From the NCBI RefSeq assembly GCF_003856975.1, contig NZ_CP033107.1, positions 124,001-188,000 on the forward strand: DNA of 64,000 nt, given 5' to 3'. This document shows, one piece after another, positions 29,957-32,327 of the stretch. The stretch comes from Plantibacter sp. PA-3-X8 (GTDB lineage: Bacteria > Actinomycetota > Actinomycetes > Actinomycetales > Microbacteriaceae). Position numbers and translations under genes: made by a program. Below the pieces are notes generated by a model. That model saw nothing but the letters and a program-made list of their open reading frames with translations, was not told where the DNA came from and did not search any database. Numbering within the stretch: position 1 is the first letter of the stretch; each line of letters opens with the position of its first letter.

Positions 29957-30433
29957 TCAGGGGGCTCCGACGCCGCCCGCGCCCCGGAAGAAGTCGGTGA
30001 GGAGCGCCGAGCAGCGCTCGGCCTCTACCCCCGCATAGACCTCGACACGGTGCTGCAGGCGCCGGTCACGCAGGACGTCGTAGACGGAACCGACCGCACC
30101 GGCCTTCTCGTCCCAGGCCCCGAAGACGACCCGCGGGATCCGGGCGGCGAGGATCGCGCCGGCGCACATGACGCAGGGTTCGAGCGTGACGACGAGCGTC
30201 AGCTCCGTGAGGTGCCAGACGGCCAGCGCGGCCGCTGCGGCGCGGATGGCGACCACCTCGGCGTGGGCGGTCGGATCGGTGTGCAGCTCGCGCTCGTTGC
30301 GTCCGACGGAGACCACCGTGCCGTCCGGGGCGACGAGCACCGCGCCCACCGGGACGTCGTCACTGGCCAGTGCCGCCTCGGCCTCGGCGATGGCGAGGTC
30401 CATCCACACGGCGAACTCGGCCGGTGCGTGCAT
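29957..30433 (-). CDS. tadA: tRNA-specific adenosine-34 deaminase
   Basis: Zinc deaminase that converts A34 of tRNA-Arg(ACG) to inosine. The 158 residues carry the zinc ligands and catalytic Glu in PTAHAEVVAI and LEPCVMCAGAI, and the family segment VFGAWDEKAGAVGS. It is divergent from upp. The 111-base gap to the protease gene downstream shows no recognised feature. Confidence 0.92.
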   Translation of the reverse strand: MHAPAEFAVWMDLAIAEAEAALASDDVPVGAVLVAPDGTVVSVGRNERELHTDPTAHAEVVAIRAAAAALAVWHLTELTLVVTLEPCVMCAGAILAARIPRVVFGAWDEKAGAVGSVYDVLRDRRLQHRVEVYAGVEAERCSALLTDFFRGAGGVGAP

Positions 30434-30472
30434 CCGTCATCTCCCCGAAATCCTGGTCGCCGCGCGAGCGAC

Positions 30473-30478
30473 TAGATT
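30473..30478 (+). promoter_or_regulatory. -10 element of upp, leaderless start
   Basis: TAGATT ends 6 bases before the ATG of upp at 30485; no Shine-Dalgarno sequence fits in between. Confidence 0.5.
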
Positions 30479-30484
30479 GATCGT

Positions 30485-31117
30485 ATGCGAGTGCACGTAG
30501 CCGACCACCCCCTCATCACCCACAAGCTCACGGTGCTCCGCGACAAGACGACACCGTCACCGGTGTTCCGTGCCCTCACCGAGGAGCTCGTCACGCTGCT
30601 CGCCTACGAGGCGACGCGCGGCGTCACGGTCGAGGAGATCACGATCCAGACGCCCGTCACCGAGACGGTCGGCGTCAAGATCAGCGAGCCGCGTCCGCTC
30701 GTGGTCCCGATCCTGCGGGCCGGCCTCGGCATGCTCGAGGGCATGGTGAAGCTGCTCCCCACCGCCGAGGTCGGCTTCCTCGGCATGGTGCGCAACGAGG
30801 AGACCCTCGAACCCACCACGTACGCGGAGCGTCTCCCCGACGACCTGTCGGACCGCCAGTGCTTCGTGCTCGACCCGATGCTCGCGACCGGTGGCTCGCT
30901 CGCGGCGGCCATCGACTTCCTCTTCAAGCGTGGCGCGATGCACGTCACCGCCATCTGCCTGCTCGCCGCCCCCGAGGGTCTCGAGCGCCTCGAGGCCGAG
31001 ACGGCCGGCAAGGACGTCACCATCGTCCTGGGCGCCCTCGACGAGAAGCTCGACGAGAACGGGTACATCGTCCCCGGGCTCGGCGACGCCGGCGACCGCC
31101 TCTACGGCGTCGTCTGA
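30485..31117 (+). CDS. upp: Uracil phosphoribosyltransferase
   Basis: Pyrimidine salvage enzyme making UMP from uracil and PRPP. The 210 residues show [33 protein letters not shown] and the PRPP loop [19 protein letters not shown], with the C-terminal uracil-binding [14 protein letters not shown] leaderless start is predicted from TAGATT at 30473-30478. A strong hairpin follows the stop codon. Confidence 0.96.
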
Positions 31118-31134
31118 CCCCTGCTCCCGCCGAC

Positions 31135-31183
31135 ATGAGGCGGATCGTCGTCCATCCCCGCGATGGACGACGATCCGCCTCAT
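31135..31183 (+). terminator. Terminator-like hairpin after upp
   Basis: Two perfect 22-base arms around a 5-base loop (31135-31156 and 31162-31183), 18 bases after the upp stop codon. There is no T-run, as is common in high-GC actinobacteria. The stem is unusually long and mismatch-free. Confidence 0.75.
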
Positions 31184-31242
31184 CTCAGTTGTGCCGCCAG
31201 CTGACAATCCCCGAGTAACAGAACGTCATCTTCCGCTCGCAC

Positions 31243-31273
31243 TTGACAGGATCCGGGGGATTCCTGTTGTATT
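31243..31273 (+). promoter_or_regulatory. Promoter before the Cys-rich leader ORF
   Basis: A consensus -35 TTGACA at 31243-31248 is followed, after 18-19 bases, by a TTGTATT-like -10 ending near 31273. Transcription would begin at or next to the ATG at 31281, giving a leaderless leader peptide. This is the only perfect TTGACA I noticed at a plausible promoter in the window. Confidence 0.5.
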
Positions 31274-31280
31274 GCGGACT

Positions 31281-31382
31281 ATGACGACCAACGCGCCCAC
31301 CCCGACCTCCTTCGAGGCCCCTGGGAACGCCGGCATGATGATGCCCGGCCGCGCTGTCATGTGCTGTCGAATGTGTCGCTGA
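31281..31382 (+). CDS. Short ORF ending in MCCRMCR, putative cysteine-responsive leader peptide
   Basis: A 33-codon ORF (MTTNAPTPT at the start, MCCRMCR at the end) directly after a strong promoter and 237 bases before the winged-helix gene. Three of its last seven codons are Cys, a composition typical of actinobacterial attenuation peptides that sense charged tRNA-Cys. A CTGCC/GGCAG hairpin lies at 31538-31551 in the gap between it and the next gene. Regulation by cysteine is inference; no homolog search was possible. Confidence 0.5.
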   Translation: MTTNAPTPTSFEAPGNAGMMMPGRAVMCCRMCR

Positions 31383-31619
31383 TCCGACTCCTCCAGCACC
31401 GGTAGCGATCCACACGGATCCGCTCCACTGCTCCCAGCACCTCCGAGTCCGCCGCTCCCCCACCAGGTGAGCCGACTCCCGGACGTACCCCGTCCGTACC
31501 CGGCCGACGCGCCACTTCCCGGATCGCGGGACCGCAACTGCCCACCGGCAGGCGGGATCACCCCGAGCGCACCGCGCACGATCCGTCGTAGCATCATCAC
31601 TCCCGAGGACCTCGCACTC

Positions 31620-32327
31620 ATGTCTCTTGCAGCCGTTCAGACCACCCGCCCCACCCGCCAGCTCACCGCCGTCGAGGATGCGCCTCGGGCCGCGACCCCG
31701 CACGTCCGCGCCGTTCCGGCCGGCCCCGAAGCCCGAGGGTTCGTCCTCTACGTCGGCCTCGACGAGGCGAAGGCGGCCGCCGCCGGCACGAGCCTCGGTG
31801 AGATCGTCGAGGCCATCAAGGCCCTGACGGCCCAGTTCGCTCCGGAGGCCGAGACGCACGCGGCCGTCGCCCTCGCCCCCCGCGGTGCCGGCGGACGCGA
31901 CCTCGACGTCGTCCGGCTCGCCCTCCAGGACCCCTCGGCACTCGCGGCCCACCGCGACGAGGTCGACGAGGAGGAGCAGGACCGCGCGCACGCCGGTGTC
32001 GTCGTCGACATCTCCCGGAAGCGCCTCGTCCTCGACAACGAAGCTGCGCCGCTCACGTACAAGGAGTTCGAGCTCCTCCAGTACCTCGTCCTCCGCGAAG
32101 GACGCACGATCGAGCGCGCCGAGCTCATCTCATCGCTGTGGCGTGCCGGCGACGACGAAGAGGTCCCGAACGAGCGGACCATCGACGTCCACGTGCGTCG
32201 CCTGCGCGCCAAGCTCGGCCGCTACGAGGACATCGTCCGCACCGTGCGCGGTGTCGGCTACCGCTTCGACCGCCACGCGGACGTCTCCATCCGCTACGCC
32301 AGCACCCCGTCGCCCGACCTGTTCTAA
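31620..32327 (+). CDS. OmpR-type winged-helix protein with unusual N-terminal domain
   Basis: Protein of 235 residues. The C-terminal 95 residues are an OmpR/PhoB DNA-binding domain (LTYKEFELLQYLVLREGRTIERAELISSLW, then NERTIDVHVRRLRAKLG and TVRGVGYRFD). The N-terminal 125 residues are not a receiver domain: there is no phospho-acceptor aspartate pattern. Instead there is an Ala/Pro-rich lead and a small alpha-beta segment (GFVLYVGLDEAKAAAAGTSLGEIVEAIKALT) of unknown function. The ATG at 31620 has GAGGA about 11 bases upstream. Expression may be governed by the upstream leader ORF. Confidence 0.85.
   Translation: MSLAAVQTTRPTRQLTAVEDAPRAATPHVRAVPAGPEARGFVLYVGLDEAKAAAAGTSLGEIVEAIKALTAQFAPEAETHAAVALAPRGAGGRDLDVVRLALQDPSALAAHRDEVDEEEQDRAHAGVVVDISRKRLVLDNEAAPLTYKEFELLQYLVLREGRTIERAELISSLWRAGDDEEVPNERTIDVHVRRLRAKLGRYEDIVRTVRGVGYRFDRHADVSIRYASTPSPDLF

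Follow-up and report, generated by a model that had tools for sequence, protein, structure and literature searches.

A conserved methionine- and cysteine-rich leader ORF upstream of an orphan OmpR-type regulator gene and its likely sulfur regulon in Microbacteriaceae

The window, the whole 64,000-nt stretch of Plantibacter DNA analyzed here, contains a gene for an orphan winged-helix regulator of the OmpR/PhoB type. It is preceded on the same strand by a 33-codon ORF (MTTNAPTPTSFEAPGNAGMMMPGRAVMCCRMCR*), and 237 nt separate the stop codon of this ORF from the regulator start (Table 1). Upstream lie tadA and upp (divergent, 29957–31117), which are kept in most relatives. A long inverted repeat directly 3′ of upp (31134–31190) is probably the upp terminator, and sequences like it are found at other places in the genome. 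The window's only match at an Rfam gathering score is a TPP riboswitch (RF00059, 53375–53475, minus strand, 67.8 bits).

Table 1. Features of the leader and regulator region, in positions of the window
Feature	Position	Strand	Basis
Operator half-site pair, degenerate, GTAAC-N5-GTCAT	31215..31229	+	One exact GTCAY half-site remains in this genome
−35 element TTGACA	31243..31248	+	Perfect match; distance to ATG fixed in relatives
Probable −10 TTGTAT, spacer 18, 8 nt 5′ of ATG	31267..31272	+	Leaderless start inferred
Leader-peptide ORF, Met- and Cys-rich, 33 codons	31281..31382	+	Conservation, peptide profile, counts
Hairpin P1 (CCUC/GAGG), within leader ORF	31305..31318	+	Covariation
Hairpin P2, GCCGGCAUGAUGAUGCCCGGC, holds the Met-Met-Met codons	31329..31349	+	Covariation
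UGAUGAUGC, complement of the element next to the regulator Shine-Dalgarno	31336..31344	+	Complementarity
TGYCGAATG core (Cys-Arg[CGA]-Met)	31365..31373	+	115/115 ORFs; can pair with CGGCA at 31331–31335
GCATCATCA, element just 5′ of the Shine-Dalgarno	31591..31599	+	Positioned CATCAT
Shine-Dalgarno GAGGA of the regulator gene	31605..31609	+	Read from sequence
Orphan OmpR/PhoB-type winged-helix regulator, 235 aa	31620..32327	+	Domain and structure matches

An earlier note on this DNA had described a perfect TTGACA promoter that would place the transcription start at the short ORF. The −35 hexamer is indeed an exact match, but the −10 is poor, and a promoter consensus scan of the region called no promoter, so that the leaderless start rests on comparison with relatives. 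In 60 of the 63 non-redundant loci, TTGAC lies 36–38 nt 5′ of the ATG, and better −10 boxes are found among these loci (e.g., TTTACT and CATAAT). The promoter spacing is compatible with a start codon at the presumed 5′ end of the mRNA.

The protein encoded downstream has, as first described, an OmpR-type DNA-binding domain and an N-terminal part that is not recognized. PF00486 (Trans_reg_C, residues 142–216, E = 4.9e-21), the C-terminal domain characteristic of OmpR, was the only Pfam family above its cut-off, and no receiver domain was matched in the N-terminus at E-values up to 1. The structure model of the N-terminal part (mean pLDDT 61.7, with residues 1–38 and 86–123 below 50) was too uncertain for use. 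The three best matches among solved structures (8hml, 8hig, and 8hih) are annotated as OmpR-type or transcriptional regulators, and we take them to be GlnR entries; their best stretches fell within residues 105–225, and the match over the whole length, receiver part included, that would identify a GlnR was not obtained. The protein shares its DNA-binding domain with GlnR and other orphan OmpR-type regulators, whereas, unlike GlnR, it has an unrecognized N-terminal part and its likely targets, described below, are sulfur rather than nitrogen genes. Among the matches listed, the closest named locus is that of a Plantibacter with an identical regulator. All seven genomes of the genus that were searched encode another DNA-binding domain of the OmpR type, at 44% identity (for example at G000:C1:2095915-2096202, locus L020), and the protein carrying it may be the true GlnR.

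With the regulator as query, 80 named Microbacteriaceae loci (the best 80 of 482) and seven loci of the genus were collected; this set of 87 includes the window's own locus, and some strains stand in it twice, once among the genus loci and once among the named ones. The leader ORF was present in 86 of the 87, the sole miss (L049) being cut by a contig end. Of the 80 loci, 77 have upp and 75 have tadA upstream, while the genes 3′ of the regulator are not kept. The exceptions were two short contigs (L049 and L053), two loci with upp at the edge of the fetched DNA (L087 and L118), and one locus (L052) that lacks both genes within 3 kb. Of the 34 genomes of this family, 32 were matched by a peptide profile (E ≤ 5e-9), and the remaining two, both of genus g5, have a diverged leader that was read by eye. 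Outside the family, the profile matched six of the order's 362 other genomes (E 0.002–0.009), and in one of these, G399 of family f10, the match is directly upstream of a regulator ortholog. Leader-like ORFs were also seen by eye 5′ of regulator orthologs in genus g5 and families f6, f7, and f10.

All 115 ORFs compared are open, free of internal stops, and a multiple of the codon in length. Across the 86 loci the position of the stop is kept even though all three stop codons are used, and pN/pS over the 63 non-redundant ORFs is 0.65. A short ORF selectively kept upstream of the gene that it controls is a feature of amino-acid leader-peptide attenuators, and that is what the comparison finds here, with translation of the ORF presumed. 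This degree of conservation is, on the sequences compared, far above chance; the leader is real and conserved, and almost certainly regulatory. Loss of the ORF in relatives that keep the regulator gene, the outcome named in the earlier note as a refutation, did not occur: every adequately covered locus of the family has the ORF, in diverged form in g5. It was also correctly foreseen that the leader precedes a regulator and not a biosynthetic gene. In 28 of the 30 loci found with the profile the regulator lies downstream, and the other two end too early. Elsewhere in the same genome, the peptide motif was sought with the pattern TGYTGYMGNATGTGY; of its four matches, the three other than this leader were judged by reading not to be leader ORFs.

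The leaders are rich in methionine and cysteine. Among the 115 ORFs, internal Met codons range from two to six (five in 73 ORFs), and there are three Cys codons in 94 ORFs, two in 16, four in three, and one in two. Across the 47 script-called ORFs of the window, by comparison, Met and Cys make up 1.3% and 0.8% of the codons. Such an excess of the codons of the regulated amino acid is typical of attenuators. The earlier note had named cysteine (or its tRNA) as the signal, and a cysteine-only attenuator, like the mycobacterial polycysteine leaders, would be in keeping with the three Cys codons of most ORFs, which lie mostly near the stop in the 86 loci, and with the sulfite-reductase/cys operon among the likely targets. 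We nevertheless consider it very improbable, since 18 of the 115 ORFs have only one or two Cys codons, the leaders of family f12 are poly-Met, and metF and metQ are also among the likely targets. Moreover, the first and third Cys are replaceable by other residues (86 loci), g5 leaders end in RRMCA*, Met codons are the more numerous, and in place of a polycysteine run there are usually two adjacent Cys in the family, and no adjacent ones in several genera. Alignment among relatives, proposed in the same note as a check on the ORF and its Cys codons, bore out the former but not all of the latter.

What is kept throughout the 115 ORFs is the core TGYCGAATG. The search pattern for the 86 loci required Cys-Arg-Met, not CGA, and all 30 loci found with the profile carry TGY CGA ATG without having been selected for it. 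In both g5 genomes CGTCGAATG replaces the core, reading CGT CGA ATG. Base-pairing of CGGCA with UGYCG was considered as the reason for the invariant core and rejected: 97.3% of cells are compatible with it, with zero two-sided changes.

Amino-acid supply does not account for the invariant CGA codon. This codon could instead belong to an arrest-peptide or slow-codon sensor, in which Cys-Arg-Met with its obligatory CGA would stall the ribosome in response to another signal (a metabolite, an antibiotic, and tRNA modification were considered) and the Met and Cys content would be secondary. CGA accounts for 11% of the Arg codons in the genes of the window and for 86 of 86 in the core, Arg-Met with CGA persists where other Cys codons are lost, and the two leaders of family f6 keep Cys-Arg-Met without the Met run. 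Such a sensor would resemble the whiB7 uORF, a known uORF controlling a regulator, as described in the part of PMC13236596 available to us. However, the f12 leaders lack Cys-Arg-Met, the genes likely to be targeted belong to sulfur and one-carbon metabolism, and the CG of CGA can pair with CGGCA, if without support from covariation. We regard this explanation as distinctly unlikely. TadA modifies the tRNA that reads CGA, and the presence of tadA near a leader with an invariant CGA is possibly a coincidence.

More distant leaders point to methionine. A directed search for Met/Cys-rich ORFs in family f12, in which the locus was returned from 30 of 40 genomes, found poly-Met ORFs before a related regulator in 29 of the 30 loci (all except L290). 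In one example the peptide ends ...MRSMMSMMMMPMMHRQPSL*; these ORFs have few or no Cys, and 28 of the 29 have RQPS near the end. The match to the f12 regulator covers mostly the DNA-binding domain (36%–51% identity). Since the end of upp was seen upstream in two of the f12 loci (L266 and L269) and not in a third (L265), orthology is likely but unproven. While the f6 leaders keep only Cys-Arg-Met, the f10 leader of G399 keeps both this motif and the Met run, and the f7 leader (G012) has MMRC only. The property common to these sequences is their sulfur amino acids, methionine being the wider one.

Two hairpins within the ORF vary in a manner consistent with base-pairing. In 59 sequences, P1 showed six two-sided changes versus 1.1 in shuffles, with 89% of cells paired, and P2, which holds the Met-Met-Met codons, showed 12 versus 2.5, with five of its eight pairs changed on both sides and lower values in slid controls. 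Both were drawn by hand, and because the shuffles do not keep relatedness, the covariation is taken as support and not as proof. The consensus fold that RNAalifold computed from 59 ORFs was weak (−6.35 kcal/mol), and both hairpins do better. The covarying hairpins and the near-invariant TGYCGAATG might also suggest a riboswitch-like structured RNA of which the ORF is a by-product. This is scarcely credible, however, given the fixed spacing of the start, the codon-multiple lengths, the stop position kept with three different stop codons, and the 115 uninterrupted sequences. Additionally, the f12 leaders differ in sequence and still have the Met codons, and no Rfam family reached its gathering score in the leader region, where four sub-threshold matches had E-values of 0.025–0.68. 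Another hairpin, GTCG/CGAC (31375–31388), has the leader stop codon in its loop, and similar ones with other bases seem, by eye, to recur in other genera.

The strand that carries the Met codons is complementary to an element beside the regulator's Shine-Dalgarno sequence. CATCAT, the complement of Met codons, was found in 27 of 45 non-redundant leaders, with every match 15–44 nt 5′ of the regulator start; it was absent from the other 18, including 12 of 29 with C after the Met codons. In leaders with C after the Met repeat, CATCAT is preceded by G in 14 of 17, versus two of seven in those with G after the repeat, so that this base appears to vary in the direction expected of pairing with the Met codons. 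Of 83 leaders, 37 have a run of at least nine bases complementary to the Met codons (16 of 43 once redundancy is removed), and the mean run was 7.7, compared with 6.1 in shuffles.

Support from folding for a switch is mixed. When the Met codons were masked as if covered by a ribosome (A-site codons −2 to +4), the 12 nt before the Shine-Dalgarno opened in 14–16 and closed in 1–2 of 41 leaders, while the Shine-Dalgarno itself did not open, going up in 1–2 and down in 4–7. With the A-site at codon +8, just before the Cys cluster, the same pre-Shine-Dalgarno stretch closed in 15 and opened in four of 41, and stalling at the Cys codons might therefore act against stalling at the Met codons. A ribosome placed at Cys-Arg-Met had no net effect on the Shine-Dalgarno, which went up in seven and down in eight of 78 leaders, and release by this route was rejected. 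These folding and position counts used the leaders for which the regulator start was set (78, 41, or 45), the Microbacterium-like loci L124–L152 being excluded.

Control by the whiB7 uORF uses a terminator. In the present region, a terminator scan found no site between the leader ORF and the regulator, and two weak sites that overlap the promoter. Because C exceeds G between the ORF stop and the regulator in 85 of 85 leaders (median C/G 1.72), Rho-dependent attenuation is possible, if on the whole unlikely: a stalled or released ribosome would decide whether Rho loads on this C-rich stretch, with the same signal and the same regulon. The idea of Rho has already been raised for actinobacterial Cys leaders, in the portion of PMC1262725 accessible to us. 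On the other hand, the regulator gene is itself C-rich (C 0.40, G 0.31), the C/G figures are those of these leaders and of the regulator gene, and a Rho mechanism does not require the conserved element before the Shine-Dalgarno.

The leader promoters also share a repeated motif. In the 63 non-redundant promoters, GTCA repeats lie at about −40, −29, −19, and −8 relative to TTGAC. Upstream GTCA was counted 61 times (11.6 expected), in 56 of the 61 cases at these four phased positions. Further GTCA, phased with TTGACAC, stand at +12 and +22, and the array has a period of ~10–11 bp. OmpR/PhoB-type proteins bind tandem repeats at such a 10- to 11-bp spacing. In ten genomes of one genus, a triple-repeat pattern gave 20 matches, versus one for the reversed control, and marked the leader promoter in nine genomes and metF in one. 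The pattern GTCAYN5GTCACA, derived from the triple-repeat sites and the metF loci, gave 53 matches versus one for its reverse in 14 Microbacteriaceae genomes, 26 versus five in six further genomes that match the regulator well (G255, G342, G224, G011, G399, and G012), and 20 versus 15 in 20 other genomes, two of them of f12.

Of the 53 matches, 14 are inside script-called ORFs. Sites were found before metF in nine of the 14 genomes, before thyA in six, before metQ in five, and before a sulfite-type reductase gene in four; metY, tkt/ctaB, dapA, a flavin reductase gene, and a RibD-like gene have few or single sites. In a test by gene family, two or more GTCAY formed a chain in the 600 nt upstream at 11 of 22 metF, 10 of 25 metQ, and nine of 18 sir-type loci, compared with 0/22, 0/25, and 0/18 for the reversed pattern and a shuffle expectation of 0.11–0.25. 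Because sites had previously been seen in some of these genomes (one for metF, five for metQ, and four for the reductase), the chain counts are partly so by construction; minus those genomes, chains were found at 10 of 21, five of 20, and five of 14 loci, respectively. The 22 metF loci exclude genomes with only a weak MTHFR match and the second pieces of split matches, the 25 metQ loci are the best copy per genome, with second copies excluded, and the 18 sir-type loci are those with a strong PF01077 match. Roughly half of the target promoters examined are without a chain. As a control for the sir promoters, nirB-type genes (0/12) were discarded, since the 1500 nt taken were probably coding, and the reversed pattern and shuffles were used instead.

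The identity of the targets was assessed on one example per target, ten by Pfam and six by NCBIfam. The NCBIfam scores of metF, the reductase, and metQ were below the cut-offs, and the reductase, on that score alone, could be a nitrite reductase; in two of the three stretches, cysD- and cysN-like ORFs were read 3′ of it. In the present genome, no chain was found at metF or at two inspected metQ copies, and no sir-type gene was found; three of its four GTCAYN5GTCACA matches are inside ORFs and one is before dapA, and the leader operator is degenerate. From these promoter repeats, the regulon of the regulator is likely to be sulfur metabolism, with binding to GTCAY predicted. A second regulator may instead bind GTCAY and merely count this regulator gene among its targets.

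The GTCAY chains before metF, metQ, and sir-type genes fit the sulfur-status regulon suggested by the earlier note, but with a sensor that would be one of methionine plus cysteine and not of cysteine only; in outline the note is right, and cysteine as the signal is too narrow. Our preferred reading, to which we give an even chance, is that the Met/Cys leader sets the level of the regulator through pairing at the side of the Shine-Dalgarno, and that the regulator acts at the GTCAY repeats. It starts from what comparison of the loci establishes, namely, a conserved ORF, its Met and Cys content, covarying hairpins, a positioned element before the Shine-Dalgarno, and common repeats. The leader peptide would sense how well the cell is supplied with sulfur amino acids, chiefly methionine but also cysteine, with sulfur limitation as the proposed signal and a possible contribution from the Cys codons. 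When charged Met-tRNA is scarce, the ribosome on the leaderless mRNA would stall at the Met-Met-Met codons. The stalled ribosome would then block AUGAUGAUGC:GCAUCAUCA pairing beside the regulator Shine-Dalgarno, and more regulator would be made; the order of these steps, the RNA switch, and the sign of the regulation are as we infer them. The regulator, the putative GTCAY-binding protein, would bind the tandem repeats, 10–11 bp apart, at its own promoter and at metF, metQ, and the sulfite-reductase/cys operon, and in some species at thyA, metY, and tkt/ctaB as well.

Wider in reach, and held somewhat more tentatively, is the proposal that this is a master regulator of sulfur and one-carbon metabolism in Micrococcales without a recognizable ligand sensor, the ribosome on the Met/Cys leader serving as the sensor. 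The sensing codons would themselves supply the strand by which the start of regulator translation is masked, and the regulator would control itself along with metF, metQ, and sir-cys through phased GTCAY.

Comparison with known systems sets this locus apart. The polycysteine ORFs of mycobacteria are known from enzyme operons. The papers cited here were available to us in part, and the likenesses and differences are limited to those parts. The mycobacterial ORFs are leaderless and short, have contiguous Cys codons, and attenuate translation of the downstream genes (PMC9031893 and also PMC13236596, both citing Canestrari et al. 2020). The leader described here is likewise a short ORF with Cys codons, is by its promoter spacing probably leaderless, and would control the gene downstream of it by attenuation; unlike them, it precedes a transcription regulator, is dominated by Met codons, has no long Cys run, and conserves its peptide and inner hairpins across the family. 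Candidate Cys leader peptides have been reported before actinobacterial cys operons, and no conserved RNA elements before methionine operons (PMC1262725). Cys codons near the stop and the lack of a clear terminator, for which Rho was suggested, are common to those leaders and the present one, whereas a leader before a regulator of the present kind is not described in the accessible text of that survey. In the case of whiB7/wblC, a transcription regulator is induced when ribosomes stall in a uORF, and its program includes antibiotic resistance factors (PMC13236596); the uORF is likewise 5′ of a regulator, but the likely regulon here is sulfur metabolism.

The combination of a Met-rich leader, an orphan OmpR-type regulator, and a sulfur regulon looks new. 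In a literature search judged by the titles and abstract starts of the matches listed, with subscription papers mostly outside its coverage, no such system was described. If the proposal is true, amino-acid attenuation controls a regulator and hence a whole regulon, and methionine leader peptides exist in actinobacteria, for which the available part of the earlier survey gave no conserved RNA elements at methionine operons (PMC1262725). The promoters bound by the regulator and induction by methionine or cysteine shortage would then offer a direct handle. Together, the leader and the sites at sulfur genes suggest that these bacteria use the ribosome to read their sulfur supply.

Two further observations were made at the target promoters. 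In three genomes (L159, L171, L234, and L237), GTCAY repeats occupy the space between a transketolase gene and one of the heme O synthase type, an unexpected target whose gene identities were checked in one genome. In addition, metF is preceded in 21 of the 22 loci (L184 and others, L173–L201) by GAGCGRC[AC]GCCGAGCCCGRCA[CT]CCG, a very conserved sequence. It gave no Rfam match at a gathering score in L184, L174, L187, or L200 and none at E ≤0.5 in L184 or L181, and it is a candidate for an undescribed RNA element.
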